Source: Acidimicrobiaceae bacterium
GTDB lineage: Bacteria; Actinomycetota; Acidimicrobiia; Acidimicrobiales; Poriferisodalaceae
Assembly: GCA_905182565.1 (NCBI GenBank)
Contig: CAJJCB010000015.1
Location: 62,001 to 126,000, forward strand
Direction: 5' to 3'
Length of the DNA: 64,000 bases
The notes under the pieces are model-generated. The model did no database searches. It had not been told where the DNA came from and saw only the letters and a program-made list of their open reading frames with translations. The stretch's first letter is position 1, and the number at the start of each line of letters is the position of its first letter. This document shows, piece by piece, positions 11,922 to 64,000 of the stretch. The position numbers were made by a program, and so were the translations under genes.

Positions 11922-13067
11922 GTGTCAAAACCTAGCTCGAGAGATCTAACATCAAAGCCTTCCGGTAAGGAAGGAGTTGATTATGAAACTATTTTTGTTA
12001 GAAAAAACCGAGGAACTCTGCTGTCCTTAGTCGTTCTTCTCATGGTGCTAATGGCGAGTTTTTTCTTTCTGAATAAGACCATAAATTGGGCGAAAGAGCT
12101 GCTGGATCCTCCAGGCGAGCGGGGCGCAGCGGTCAGTCTGACTCTCCCGCCAGGCGCAACTACGTCGGGTATCTCTGGAACATTGGCTGATCTCGACATC
12201 ATTCCGAACGCAAGCGCCTATGAGTGGTACATCCGACTAAAGGGCGGTCCTGAATTTCAAGCTGGCTCGTATACCTTTCACACTAACTCTTCGATATCTC
12301 AAGCCCTAGAAGTTCTGAGTTCTGGTCCTAACACCCCGGAACAGGCCGTGCAGCTTCGACTAACCATCCCAGAAGGTTTCACAGTTTCTCGAATGATAGA
12401 TCTAATAAACAACACTCCTGGCTTGGCTTTCAGCGGGTTTGATTTCGAAAACGAATTACGCGTTGGGTATAACAGTTCAGGCGTTCTATCAAACCAAGCG
12501 ATGGTCGCTACAGGAGTTATCGAGCCATATGAGGGACTACTGTTTCCAGATACTTATTTCCTAACTGAAGAATCTTCTGCGGAGGATCTGGTTGTACAAA
12601 TGATCTCCCGCTTTGATCAAGTACTTTTGGAACTTGGCTATTCGGAAGCTATCGAAAGAGTTGGTCTAAGCGCTTACGAGGTCCTCACTATCGCAAGTTT
12701 GATTGAACGAGAAGCTCGAATCCCAGAAGAAAGAGGAAAGGTTTCGCGCGTAATCCATAACCGTGTTGCTTCAAATTGGTTTCTTGGAATTGACGCGACA
12801 ATCGTATATGCGACGGGCAATAACAATTTGTCAGCTGCTGACCTCAGAGTAGATTCTCCCTACAACTCTCGACTTGTTCGTGGTCTGCCTCCAGGGCCCA
12901 TAAGCTCACCCGGGAGAGCTGCATTAGAAGCTGCTATTGAGCCTGCTTCCGGGCTATGGCTGTATTATGTACTTGTTTCAGAAGATGGTCGACACTCCTT
13001 CTCAACCAATAATCAAGATTTTCAGCGAGATAAAGCAAAATGTGTAGAGAGAAACCTTTGCGGATGA
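11922..13067 (+). CDS. mltG: Endolytic murein transglycosylase MltG (YceG family)
   Basis: 381 residues, GTG start. MltG is a membrane-bound lytic transglycosylase that cleaves nascent peptidoglycan strands and is thought to set glycan length. Visible: a basic cytoplasmic head, one membrane helix (about 31-50), a LysM-like region, and the YceG catalytic domain with the active-site segment IASLIEREA (catalytic Glu) followed by ERGKVSRVIHNR. NSRLVRGLPPGPISSPG near the C-terminus is also family-typical. The stop overlaps the preferred aroE start (ATGA). Confidence 0.95.
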   Translation: MSKPSSRDLTSKPSGKEGVDYETIFVRKNRGTLLSLVVLLMVLMASFFFLNKTINWAKELLDPPGERGAAVSLTLPPGATTSGISGTLADLDIIPNASAYEWYIRLKGGPEFQAGSYTFHTNSSISQALEVLSSGPNTPEQAVQLRLTIPEGFTVSRMIDLINNTPGLAFSGFDFENELRVGYNSSGVLSNQAMVATGVIEPYEGLLFPDTYFLTEESSAEDLVVQMISRFDQVLLELGYSEAIERVGLSAYEVLTIASLIEREARIPEERGKVSRVIHNRVASNWFLGIDATIVYATGNNNLSAADLRVDSPYNSRLVRGLPPGPISSPGRAALEAAIEPASGLWLYYVLVSEDGRHSFSTNNQDFQRDKAKCVERNLCG

Positions 13068-29201: not shown

Positions 29202-30404
29202 GTGAGTCGATCTACTTTTACTTCTGAGTCAGTTACTGAAGGCCATCCGGACAAGATGGCAGATCAAATTTCTGATGCCATTCTCGATGCCATGCTGCAA
29301 GAGGATCCATATAGCCGTGTGGCATGCGAAACGCTTGTGACTACCGGAATAGTAGTTGTAGCAGGAGAAGTCACGACTAAAGGGTTTGTCGACATTCCCA
29401 AAGTAGTTCGTAACACAGTTCGAGGCATCGGCTATGACCGAGGCGACCTTGGATTCGACGGCAAAACTTGCGGTGTCATGGTGACGCTAGATGAACAATC
29501 ACCAGATATAGCTCAGGGAGTGAACGATTCTGAGGAGATGAGATCGGGTAAAGCTGATGGAGGAGATGATCTCGATCGTCAAGGAGCCGGCGATCAAGGA
29601 ATGATGTTTGGTTATGCTTGTAAGGAAACAGATGTGCTTATGCCTCTGCCAATTCATGTAGCTCACCGAATGGCAGAACAATTAACTGAAGCACGTAAAT
29701 CGGGACAAGTTCCTTATCTTCGACCTGATGGCAAAACACAGGTTAGTTTTGAGTATGAGAATGGCCGGCCTGTTCGTTTAAAGACAGTCCTAGTGTCAAC
29801 TCAACACAATCCCGGGATTGACCGTGACGGAACTATCCGCCCCGACTTGATAGAGCATGTTATTCGCCCGGCTGTTCCAGCTGAGTTTGCTGATGATGAT
29901 TATGAAGTATTTGTAAACCCAACCGGCAATTTCGTAGTTGGCGGCCCAGTTGGCGATGCTGGATTAACAGGCAGAAAAATTATTGTCGATACCTACGGTG
30001 GGTATGCGCGACACGGTGGTGGTGCTTTCTCGGGTAAAGACCCTTCTAAAGTTGACCGGTCTGCAGCTTATGCGACTCGATGGGTAGCGAAAAATTTAGT
30101 AGCGGCGGGCGCCGCTGAGCGGTGTGAAGTCCAAGTTGCCTATGCCATAGGCGTTGCGAGACCAATTTCGGTGTTAGTCGAAACCTTTGGTACCGAGAAC
30201 GTCGACACAAATCTTATTTCAGCAGCCGTAAGCGAGGTCTTTGATCTTCGACCAGCCGCAATACTTAGAGATCTAGATCTTCGAAGGCCGATATATCAGC
30301 AGACCGCAGCGTACGGGCATTTCGGGCGTGAGGCTTCTGATGGGCTCTTCACTTGGGAGAGACTGGATCAGGTTGATAATATCCGGTCTGTGCTAGGCCT
30401 CTAA
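29202..30404 (+). CDS. metK: S-adenosylmethionine synthetase
   Basis: 400 residues, GTG start seven bases after AGGAG. It makes SAM from methionine and ATP. Motifs: [36 protein letters not shown] (the GAGDQG loop), [20 protein letters not shown] (phosphate-binding), and [15 protein letters not shown]. Length is normal. A possible structured leader precedes it. Confidence 0.97.
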
Positions 30405-34743: not shown

Positions 34744-35046
34744 AATTCTCGTTACCGGGCCGCCGCTCTTGTTAACTATTAGTCAAGACCGGAGGCTGAA
34801 TTACCGTCTTCGAAGCCACGAGCAGGTCATTGGCAAGAAACGTTTACCCCCAACAACGCAGGCCGTCTATGGCGTTACTCTGCTTTTGGATATGACAATG
34901 TTTGTGGGGGCTTGCAAAAAGCTTTTGTACTCAGCCAGAACTTCAGACCTAAAGAAACACAAAATAATTTAAAACTTCATACGGAATAGTCTTCTGAAAG
35001 ATCGCACCCTAGTGAGCGCTCTTGAGCGATTCCGACCTATTGTCTG
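34744..35046. other. Intergenic stretch after rsmB, no gene seen
   Basis: About 300 bases at the boundary between the housekeeping block and the accessory block. In many Actinobacteria the gene rpe follows rsmB; I could not find a recognisable Rpe fragment here. A 90-codon frame crossing this gap has no recognisable sequence and overlaps rsmB. I see no strong terminator. Confidence 0.6.
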
Positions 35047-58213: not shown

Positions 58214-58813
58214 TTAGGCTTTCCGGCTGAAGGATCGCTCCACGACTGTCAGTCCATTCGACGCAGCCGCGGCTTGAAAATCAGCATTTGCATAGAGGCC
58301 CTGAATTGCGCCTGCATATGCATCAAGTGAATCAACATAAAAGATTCCCAGGTATGTGCCCGTGGCTTGCCCAGCAGCTAACCCACGAATCGCGCGTGTG
58401 CCGTTCACGCCATTACCTACCAACGTTGCATCCACTACATCCATAACTCGTTGCGTGGCTTCTAAAGAGTGGTCTGTAGCTGTTTGGAAAACGCTGACTG
58501 CGTAAGCACCATCGCAGTCACCTCGTTCGTCAAGAATCTGACCGACGTTGGTCATCAACGGAACAGTTCCTGAAGCTTCCATCACGGCCACGAAACCTGG
58601 GTCCGTCATCCAAAGATGACGATGTGCATAATAAGAGTCCATGGAGTCCCAGATAGAACTAATCACTCCTTTGCCCGTCATTTCTCCGGTCAACGTAACT
58701 GAACCACGAACGGAACTAGCGCCTGCCTCTTTCATGAGGGGTGTTGCTGCCGCTGTTACATCGCCCACTTTGGACGGATCTCCGTCTCCCACAGTAAAAA
58801 ACATATACGACAC
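58214..58813 (-). CDS. Tandem dimeric alpha/beta-barrel (ABM-like) protein
   Basis: 199 residues made of two related halves of about 95 residues. The first has YMFFTVGDGDPSKVGDV, the second YAVSVFQTATDHSLEATQ; both continue with a strand-helix-strand pattern and end near DPGFVAVM and ADFQAAA respectively. This is the layout of fused ferredoxin-like ABM domains, as found in monooxygenase-like and NIPSNAP-like proteins. I recognise no named family. Function unknown; the fused halves would form an intramolecular barrel. Confidence 0.65.
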   Translation of the reverse strand: MSYMFFTVGDGDPSKVGDVTAAATPLMKEAGASSVRGSVTLTGEMTGKGVISSIWDSMDSYYAHRHLWMTDPGFVAVMEASGTVPLMTNVGQILDERGDCDGAYAVSVFQTATDHSLEATQRVMDVVDATLVGNGVNGTRAIRGLAAGQATGTYLGIFYVDSLDAYAGAIQGLYANADFQAAAASNGLTVVERSFSRKA

Positions 58814-62161: not shown

Positions 62162-62545
62162 AATACCACCTTAGATCGTTGGGAATAAGCGAATTCTAAC
62201 AGGCTTGGTTGAGTTTGGAGTTCCCCCGCTTTGTGAGATGGGGTTGTTTGTTAGTTCGTCATGCTGCTGATGCATGCGTAATCTCTACATAAAAACTCGC
62301 TCTATGTTCACGGCCTAGTGTTCACAGCTAGAAACGCTAAAAATGCTCCTTCTGTACTGGCTCCTAAGAGATTTCTACGAGAGTTAAGCGGTACTTCTAC
62401 CTCAGTTCTCCATTGTAAATAGACCTCTTTCTGAGGAGGGGGACACAGGTTCGAGTCCTACAGCGCTAGTAACGGTAAACGTAACCCCCCTCAATAATCA
62501 GACTTCATTAGTGCATGCAAGAATCCAACACAAGAGCCCTATGTA
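62162..62545. other. Non-coding stretch at the mobile-element boundary
   Basis: About 380 bases with no gene. It holds the tRNA-3'-end-like sequence described below. I see no complete tRNA and no terminator for the lipoprotein gene here because that gene reads in the opposite direction. Confidence 0.5.
62439..62468 (+). other. tRNA-3'-end-like segment, possible attachment site
   Basis: The sequence around GGTTCGAGTCC (62448-62458) has the T-loop TTCGAGT closed by AGG/CCT. The two outer base pairs of the T-stem are mismatched, and no matching acceptor, D or anticodon arms could be built upstream. It is followed at 62546 by a recombinase fragment. Such partial tRNA ends typically mark integration sites. 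Confidence 0.35.
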
Positions 62546-62656
62546 ATGGGTATGAAACGAGATTCCACAGCAGCGATCTATATTCGCAAGAGCACTAAGC
62601 AAGAAGATGGTCGCTCATTAAAAGGTCAGGAGCAGGACTGTCAGGACAGGGCCTAG
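62546..62656 (+). pseudogene. Truncated serine recombinase (resolvase/integrase) N-terminus
   Basis: 36 codons ending at TAG 62654-62656. The peptide has AAIYIRKSTKQ and RSLKGQEQDCQ, the start of the serine recombinase catalytic domain; the Ser of RKST is the nucleophile position. Full-length enzymes have 180 to over 500 residues; here the rest of the catalytic domain and the DNA-binding part are missing after the stop. It is a decayed integrase or resolvase and supports a mobile-element origin for the region to its right. Confidence 0.7.
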
Positions 62657-62741
62657 GTAAAAACAAAGTAATTAACTTTCATAGGGTTAACAGGAGATGG
62701 GGGCCGCTCCAATATTGAGGCAAGCTGCCGCCATGACCCAC

Positions 62742-62757
62742 CCCCCGTTTTTGGGGG
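62742..62757. other. Short GC hairpin between recombinase remnant and small membrane ORFs
   Basis: CCCCC-GTTTTT-GGGGG at 62742-62757 without a T-run on the plus strand. It may be a terminator remnant or a chance hairpin. Confidence 0.3.
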
Positions 62758-62850
62758 AATAGTTGCTCTACTATTTATTTCCCTAAACAATCGCCAGGTG
62801 TTCAGATTGCAGAACTAATATCTGTTCATGAAGGACAACGACGGAACATC

Positions 62851-63021
62851 ATGATCAACCTGAAAAATGTTGGTAACGGCATGATGATTGCGTCTTGCGT
62901 CCTATTAGTCGTAAAGAGTGGGCAATTACGACCAGGACCAGGTTGGTTTATTCCGGCTCTGTTCGTTGGAGGATTTGTTATGGTCATCGCCAACGGAATG
63001 AAAGGCAGACGCCGAGCATGA
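62851..63021 (+). CDS. Small two-helix membrane protein, copy 1
   Basis: 56 residues from ATG 62851. Two hydrophobic segments, about residues 10-22 and 32-50, with a basic end (GMKGRRRA). It resembles the next gene in layout and in sequence around the second helix (GFVMVIANGMKG versus GFVLMVINNFKG). An ATG at 62828 starts MKDND like copy 2, but a one-base deletion relative to copy 2 sends it to a stop after eight codons, so this copy now starts 23 bases later. It overlaps copy 2 by ATGA. Confidence 0.5.
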   Translation: MINLKNVGNGMMIASCVLLVVKSGQLRPGPGWFIPALFVGGFVMVIANGMKGRRRA

Positions 63022-63200
63022 AAGACAACGACCGCAACGCGATAATCAACTTCAGATATGTTGGCGGGTTTCTGCTAGTTGCAGCGATTGTCTTATCTTT
63101 TATTTTGGAGAAGTCGCCACTATCTCAAGGCGCTGTTTTTTTCATGGGTCTTACAGGATTCGTTCTGATGGTCATTAATAACTTCAAAGGCACACGCTGA
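63018..63200 (+). CDS. Small two-helix membrane protein, copy 2
   Basis: 60 residues, starting MKDNDRNAIINFRYVGG. Two membrane helices (about 15-31 and 39-54) separated by a short loop, basic end KGTR. Its ATG overlaps the stop of copy 1. The family is not recognised; small two-helix proteins of this type occur in mobile elements as holin-like or toxin-like peptides, but nothing here decides that. Confidence 0.55.
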   Translation: MKDNDRNAIINFRYVGGFLLVAAIVLSFILEKSPLSQGAVFFMGLTGFVLMVINNFKGTR

Positions 63201-63207
63201 AGAATTA

Positions 63208-63237
63208 AAACAACGGGGCGCTACTACCGCACCCCGC
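63208..63237 (-). terminator. Minus-strand terminator after the 52-residue ORF
   Basis: On the minus strand CGGGG and CCCCG arms enclose a 13-base loop and are followed by TTGTTTTAA. It follows the 63241-63399 frame by a few bases. Confidence 0.5.
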
Positions 63238-63240
63238 TGT

Positions 63241-63399
63241 CTAAACCGTGCGGTCGCCTTTAGGGCGTAACCCTGAGCCACCATCTATTAGGTATTTCAC
63301 AATCTCGCCAACAAATCTGCTCTTTGCAGGATCTTTCACATCAACAATTACTTTCTTGATAACTGATTCAAGCAAGACGCGCTTTTGAGCCGAAAGCAA
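63241..63399 (-). CDS. Small protein or fragment, 52 residues
   Basis: A minus-strand frame from TTG 63399 to TAG 63241-63243. It contains KRVLLESVIKKVIVDVKDPA and GEIVKYLIDGGSG, with an amphipathic helix, protein-like composition and an adjacent minus-strand terminator. There is no ribosome-binding site before the TTG. It could be a complete small gene or the end of a longer one disrupted at 63400-63420. I do not recognise the family. Confidence 0.45.
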   Translation of the reverse strand: MLSAQKRVLLESVIKKVIVDVKDPAKSRFVGEIVKYLIDGGSGLRPKGDRTV

Positions 63400-63474
63400 A
63401 ATGAATGTCTATGTGTCAACGGACGTCCAGAAATCTATGAGACAATTTTTAGGTACCCAACCAAAGGCTTAGTT

Positions 63475-63855
63475 ATGAAGATGGATGCCGAAGACTACAT
63501 TGATATTCTCTCAGCGAGAGCAGCAGACGCTCGTGCCATAATCATGTTCTTTGCCGTCTTTCATACAGGACTACTTGTCGTGTTGGGATTTGCGGGCACC
63601 GGGTTGCAAGACTCAGGAACTCAACTTGCGTTAACAGCTGTAACGGTCCTTACCTCGCTTTGGACGCTGTTCTTCCTTGACGACTGTATGCAAGATATCT
63701 TTGCCTGCGGGAAAGATCTTTCTGATGGTTCTGAAGATTTCAAAGCCAGTCATATCGGTCGCCGTTTCACAGCAGTTCCACTACCTGCGTTTAGGGTCGT
63801 GAGCACAGTTGTTATCGCGTTAATCGTGTTGGCTGAAGTGTTAGCCATCTACTAG
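63475..63855 (+). CDS. Three-helix membrane protein of unknown function
   Basis: 126 residues from ATG 63475 (another ATG two codons on). An in-frame TTG at 63385 would add 30 poor-quality residues and overlap the minus-strand ORF, so it is not chosen. Three hydrophobic helices: about 22-42 (IIMFFAVFHTGLLVVLGF), 52-66 and 104-124. A Cys pair in the middle region (DDCMQDIFACGKDL). Function unknown. Confidence 0.55.
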   Translation: MKMDAEDYIDILSARAADARAIIMFFAVFHTGLLVVLGFAGTGLQDSGTQLALTAVTVLTSLWTLFFLDDCMQDIFACGKDLSDGSEDFKASHIGRRFTAVPLPAFRVVSTVVIALIVLAEVLAIY

Positions 63856-63917
63856 CCAGCAACAATCACTTCAACTATTGAGAATAGTTTTGCAGGGTGT
63901 AAATCTTTCAAGTTCAT
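63852..63917 (-). CDS. Very short ORF overlapping an upstream partial gene
   Basis: 21 residues (MNLKDLHPAKLFSIVEVIVAG). Its ATG overlaps the stop of the partial gene to its right (ATGA), which suggests real translation coupling. No family recognised. Confidence 0.35.
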   Translation of the reverse strand: MNLKDLHPAKLFSIVEVIVAG

Positions 63918-64000
63918 GAAACCTCCACTAGCTGGTTGTTCTTCTTTGCCTTTTCTGTTTTTGTTAGTGGTTGAACAAATTCGATTGTGACCTGGCCTTC
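63914..64000 (-). CDS. C-terminal end of a gene cut by the window edge (partial)
   Basis: The minus-strand frame is open from the right edge to TGA at 63914-63916 and encodes 28 residues with a Lys-rich segment (TKTEKAKKNNQLVEVS). Tight overlap with the next short ORF resembles the packed organisation of phage or mobile-element genes. Too short to assign. Confidence 0.4.
   Translation of the reverse strand, partial: EGQVTIEFVQPLTKTEKAKKNNQLVEVS

Follow-up and report, generated by a model that had tools for sequence, protein, structure and literature searches.

A tRNA-Val(TAC)-derived junction with a truncated serine recombinase in an Acidimicrobiaceae genome and its probable relation to tandem tRNA-end arrays

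Small gene cassettes at the side of tRNA genes have been described as a route of gene gain in small aquatic genomes, for which the closest paper names no enzyme in its main text (PMC7771536). In the available text of that paper, flexible genomic island 1 of the Actinomarinales is described as containing gene cassettes at tRNAs with partial tRNA repeats, and a prophage in tRNA-Val is mentioned as well (PMC7771536). The use of tRNA genes by serine recombinases has been called rare (PMC3218068), and the sixteen attB sites of Mycobacterium prophages that lie over tRNA or tmRNA genes are, in the accessible part of the report, all assigned to tyrosine integrases (PMC10654092). Within the accessible text of the open-licence literature, no paper was found that links tRNA cassettes to serine recombinases.

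The window analysed here is a stretch of 64,000 nucleotides (G000:C15:62001-126000) from an Acidimicrobiaceae genome of 2.65 Mb in 27 contigs. A sequence-only reading of this window had described a tRNA-end-like site near its right end, consisting of a T-loop-like TTCGAGT with a degenerate stem, followed by the start of a serine recombinase cut short by TAG; it took the place for the decayed border of one integrated element running on beyond the window. The features found at this place are as follows (window positions).
62305-62431, plus strand: repeat R1, matching contig C5 at 72% (L010:8901-8796), part of G001:C252 at 78% and G001:C13 at 85%.
62434-62466, plus strand: decayed piece of the 3' half of tRNA-Val(TAC), 91% over 33 bases against the genome's own tRNA, with 25/26 over 62434-62459.
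62452-62469, plus strand: 18-base core read from the sequence, in which AC at 62460-62461 separates the T-arm half CGAGTCCT from the recombinase-side half downstream.
62470-62551, plus strand: spacer of 82 bases between core and recombinase start, read from the sequence.
62552-62656, plus strand: N-terminal stub of a serine recombinase, 34 codons and TAG, with a tblastn match to a relative's stub (E 6.6e-5) and an end-profile match at 62538-62604 (E 5.5e-4).
62641-64000, strand not assigned: start of a second element that extends beyond the right end of the window as far as about C15:127510 and matches contig C17 at 91% over 358 bp, with an intact 528-aa serine recombinase.

Both halves of the described site were confirmed. 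TTCGAGT is located at 62450-62456, and the stem is indeed degenerate, with CCTAC where tRNA-Val has CCTGT. Bases 62434-62459 correspond to bases 39-64 of the genome's own tRNA-Val(TAC) with an E value of 8.9e-7 in a search across 26 loci. The window piece is a decayed repeat without an intact tRNA alongside, and ARAGORN detected no tRNA gene in the window; contigs C21 and C16 each have an intact tRNA-Val at one end, with 141 identical bases in common there. The coding part of the stub runs from 62552 to 62653 with TAG at 62654-62656, and the N-terminus of a relative's recombinase aligns with it at 50% over 30 aa. The 34 residues alone gave no Pfam match, and where an intact gene would encode Resolvase and Recombinase domains the window element contains only this stub. 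The site at 62434-62656 marks a border of mobile DNA. A second and better preserved copy of the tRNA piece, of the kind that the earlier reading had proposed to look for, lies 8.3 kb rightward on the same strand (C15:132759-132796 or L008:10759-10796, 38/38 bases), and conserved synteny across 62400 was not seen, the similarity of the same-genus genome G001 to the left flank (92.4% over 813 bp) ending at 62431. The contigs of G001 are short and do not show whether its two flanks adjoin.

The sequence to the right does change in gene style, as had been noted, and the change has a further cause in a second repeat and its minus-strand recombinase. This second element begins at about 62641, at codon 30 of the stub, and has a decayed counterpart on C17. 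Its 528-aa serine recombinase is encoded on the minus strand at L008:3914-5500 (C15:125914-127500) and contains Resolvase and Recombinase domains (Pfam); the 3' end of the gene enters the window at 63914-64000. The intact gene belongs to the next element and not to that of the stub, and no tRNA-like end was seen beside it. On C17, decayed sister stretches (L009:7812-8168, 12092-12143 and 12252-12369) flank a gene for a 1193-aa ABC transporter, and window positions 62829-63200 contain two similar small membrane-protein-like frames in tandem, the first of which is frameshifted relative to the C17 copy. No phage or ICE structural or conjugation genes were seen among the ORFs of at least 80 aa in L008:2000-14000, and of eight chosen proteins from L008, L009, L041 and the window that were scanned with Pfam, in addition to the large CoA-transferase and the stub, none was phage- or conjugation-like. 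The reading as a decayed mobile-DNA border at a tRNA-derived site is supported, with no phage or ICE genes seen to its right among these ORFs and proteins. The left flank R1 is itself a repeat, so the place looks like two pieces of mobile DNA meeting rather than the edge of one large element.

About 3 kb rightward, a MerB-like gene is followed by CoA-transferase and carboxylase genes (L008:5582-10755). The three occur together in G020 and G012, and the last two also in G004, G006, G007 and G033. A reading of the 9.2-kb interval from one tRNA piece to the other as a single island was considered and dropped, since the stretch consists mostly of these genes, which are clustered in relatives too. 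In G001 the carboxylase stretch is present at 92% and is followed by a piece read as a decayed tRNA; no MerB match is listed for this genome. A 12-base direct repeat GTCAGGACAGGG at positions 2640 and 5639 of L008 was likewise rejected as an att pair, because its right copy lies within the MerB-like gene, which aligns full length with relatives in five of six compared loci and is thus not interrupted. Proteins with weak similarity to DUF6854 recur at window positions 58214-58813, at L010:4969-5565 and at L055:10781-11401; one of them is the cargo of a G006 module.

Further tRNA-Val pieces are present at C5:19075-19122 and G001:C252:4058-4110, and the pairing of site and stub recurs in the own genome at C5, C21 and C15:133598. 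At C15:132759-133612, tRNA bases through CCTGT stand on one side and CTGTAGCG on the other, which fits a crossover at the central dinucleotide. The 808-bp segment L008:10796-11603 has the look of an insertion once its flanks are joined, the first 46 bases agreeing with relatives and 61 and 62 of 96 overall. From L008:11603 onward, where the own genome has CTGTAGCGCCCAC, G001 tracks the right side at 83-85%. The two flanks of this segment lie on different G001 contigs with other neighbours, so the segment is at most a candidate for a single clean insertion. A second recombinase type was observed at the ends of contigs C2 and C5 (L041:4673-5041, L010:13294-13785, L052:1-1000), where it runs into the contig ends; its continuation on C25 has a frame shift and looks broken, and site variants such as CCTGTATCGCCCAC occur nearby. 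L058:894-1298 may represent a recombinase start fused to a C-terminal part (tblastn E 0.004, no Pfam match).

The 18-mer CGAGTCCTGTAGCGCCCA was counted in 39 family genomes with at most two mismatches. It was matched in 28 of them, many with only one to three copies; G004 contains 14, G012 eight, G006 six, the own genome (G000) three and G001 two. A control 18-mer from the 3' end of tRNA-Asn gave one copy in each of these five genomes and more than one match in some others (five in G003, four in G010), and the tRNA-Val pattern read backwards gave no copies in the same five. On G006:C36 six copies of the 18-mer follow one another in direct order, the first belonging to the intact tRNA at 29621 and the others lying at 35043, 36599, 37516, 40669 and 47983. 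Repeats of the tRNA end also stand behind intact tRNA-Val on G012:C8 and on the own C21, and G004:C27 carries seven copies on a contig with no tRNA gene (L109, L054, L110). The assemblies, some of them built from metagenomes, are fragmented, with contigs often ending near tRNA-Val sites.

Recombinase N-termini accompany a part of these sites at a near-constant distance in several genera. One was found within 300 bases upstream of 10 of 50 sites and downstream of none, in loci that had been fetched for a site or a recombinase match and are therefore no random sample; seven of the 40 sites without a stub are intact tRNA genes. The start codon lies 68-77 bases from the 15-mer TCCTGTAGCGCCCAC in nine sites and 128 in the tenth, as calculated from match positions with two extrapolated to residue 1, and the stub is always directed away from the site. 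Among 2000 control stretches 25 matched; 20 of these fall on recombinase genes or fragments at other places in the loci, including the fragment of the window, and five are weak (E 0.027-0.048). Counted from the central dinucleotide, AC in the window, the start codon is 90 bases away in the window, 72-81 in nine array ends and 77 in the C5 copy. A profile built from the nine array ends, with the window and C5 copies excluded, gave 41 places at E <= 1e-3, of which nine are the ends used to build it, two are the window counted twice and 30 are further places, against a best E of 0.21 in reversed sequence; the window match covers the start-codon region only and not the core. The stub type has 18 matches in 6 of the 39 family genomes, eight of them in the own genome, and no full-length recombinase of this type was found in the 39. 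A wider search returned seven loci in genome contigs, several already known, and one weak match in viral contigs.

The sequences outside the core are in part related by symmetry. Twenty pairs of neighbouring sites were compared at both ends of the intervening stretch with a threshold of at least 9 of 15 positions; such pairs may span sites missed by the filter (one at about L109:2424). About a centre between G and T of CCTGTAG, the arms matched in 7 of 20 neighbour pairs, the other 13 falling below the threshold, as opposed to 33 of 358 cross pairings (permutation p ~0.0002). A first arm score had given 6 of 20 against 1.7% of the 358 cross pairings. The seven matching pairs average 12.4 at that centre versus 3.0-4.7 at twelve other centres within six bases, a mean inflated by their selection at that centre, which leaves the permutation value unaffected. 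The arms differ between modules. For the element of the window, no opposite end was found. Arms that are symmetric about GT and match more within than between modules are as expected of the attP of a serine integrase; the attP of A118 is pseudo-palindromic about its central dinucleotide, according to the available account of the A118-family serine integrases (PMC3783163).

The centre of the window core was placed from this module symmetry in relatives, and the window differs from the usual join. Where an array site has a stub, its recombinase side adjoins the acceptor half of the tRNA end. The window and C5 instead have the recombinase side adjoining the T-arm half (GAGTCCT, AC, recombinase side), with the switch at the dinucleotide located by symmetry; in C5 the profile match (E 1.5e-17) starts at the base where the similarity to the tRNA ends. 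We infer that the window core is a reversed junction, opposite to the usual one. In the accessible account of the A118 family, att sites synapse in either alignment and only the parallel one proceeds (PMC3783163). The window, C5 and G001:C252 agree in the sequence that precedes the tRNA piece and in carrying the CCTACAG variant, so they possibly go back to one old event that was copied later.

We consider it likely that the window site is a decayed junction left by a large serine recombinase that used the 3' end of tRNA-Val(TAC) as its attB. The attP of the element would adjoin its recombinase gene, whose start codon would lie some 70-80 bases away from the crossover, and attP and attB would be joined at the central GT, within the T-stem on its 3' strand. 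With the final bases of the tRNA carried by attP itself, the tRNA would stay whole and further modules could enter beside it, giving rise to tandem arrays. Many copies would then have been reduced to the site and a recombinase stub; copies that retain only these would have needed an enzyme from elsewhere for any continued movement. In the window, a recombinase end would have become fused to the T-arm half of the tRNA, with the second serine-recombinase element following at codon 30. The near-constant stub distance and the symmetry of the arms around a single dinucleotide point to serine recombinases as the joining enzymes. Several observations count against this reading: the failure to find a full-length recombinase of the stub type in the 39 family genomes, the 13 of 20 neighbour pairs below the symmetry threshold, the 40 of 50 sites lacking a stub, the restriction of the window's profile match to the surroundings of the start codon, the unexpected orientation of the window's join, the tyrosine integrases beside the site on both viral contigs that carry it exactly, and the fragmentation of the assemblies.

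The best surviving alternative, to which we assign a rather low probability, is that the tRNA piece is the attachment site of a tyrosine integrase, as in phages or tycheposon-like elements, and that the serine stub arrived separately. The tRNA piece of the window exceeds the 18-base core, and some array ends retain 39-44 tRNA bases. Moreover, two viral contigs with an exact 19-base match to the tRNA-Val end both have a Phage_integrase gene adjacent to it (L159:2885-3892; L158:5662-6730), which indicates that a second class of enzyme also uses tRNA-Val. A separately arrived stub is nevertheless hard to reconcile with its near-constant distance from the site across genera and with a symmetry centre that is a single dinucleotide, and a tyrosine recombinase, as carried by tycheposons, was absent from the six module genes of L055, L061 and L011 that were scanned.

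Two enzyme classes may be at work at this one tRNA, tyrosine integrases on the long ends and serine recombinases on the 18-base ends that have arms. In the window, the tRNA piece belongs to the long kind and its right-hand neighbour to the serine kind, and R1 is probably the right end of a module with a long tRNA end. R1 (window 62305-62431; L010:8901-8796; L036:2622-2698) directly adjoins the tRNA piece here, but C5 and G001:C252 have a single gene between the two, which by eye is luciferase-like or P450-like.

It is less probable still that ordinary rearrangement, with no site-specific enzyme, spread the tRNA pieces and stubs as passive repeats. Contigs often terminate in such repeats, and the upstream bases and CCTACAG variant common to the window, C5 and G001:C252 could be copies of one old junction. 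Passive spread does not account for matched arms that are specific to a module or for the direct tandem order beside an intact tRNA in G006. Nor does it account for C21, where a second tRNA 3' end lies 1613 bases past tRNA-Val and is followed by the sequence that directly follows the tRNA in G007. This 1613-base segment contains a DUF418 gene and a recombinase stub beside the second site, and joining its flanks without it restores the G007 sequence at 92 of 104 positions. Chance resemblance, with neither a tRNA piece nor a recombinase, would suit a fragment of 34 codons lacking a Pfam match in a window with no tRNA gene, but is highly improbable given the 25/26 identity to the own tRNA, the E value of the fragment and the repeated pairing of site and stub at C5, C21 and C15:133598.

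If the junction is indeed the work of a serine recombinase, it provides a testable enzyme-site pair and a signature for finding arrays, namely an 18-base tRNA end with matched arms; perhaps there is a set of recombinases with a common target and differing own sites. Integron arrays consist of direct tandem sites that delimit small gene modules and are served by a tyrosine integrase acting on folded attC sites. The arrays described here resemble them in their tandem direct sites bounding small modules, the sites here being a tRNA-end core with symmetric arms. More tentatively, and less likely than not, the system could be a serine-recombinase counterpart of the integron, in which a tRNA serves as the dock for stacked modules (gene, stub and attP half-site) with arms diverged between modules and matched within them, moved perhaps by many orthogonal recombinases in trans.

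Other described systems share single traits with these arrays. Tycheposons are likewise cargo elements of aquatic bacteria bounded by tRNAs, and are described in the available text as having a tyrosine recombinase and a size of 4-200 kb (PMC10872708). The serine-recombinase AICEs of Mycobacterium at tRNA-Leu and phage phiRSM1 at tRNA-Ser are similar in placing a serine recombinase at a tRNA gene; those are, as far as the accessible text describes them, whole elements with their recombinase, whereas the present ones are small tandem modules with mostly a stub or none (PMC3218068). The cassettes of 'Candidatus Actinomarinales' are alike in kind and come from the same actinobacterial class (PMC7771536). 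Unlike that report, whose main text does not contain the words recombinase or integrase, the arrays presented here have their ends marked by serine recombinase stubs and symmetric arms (PMC7771536).
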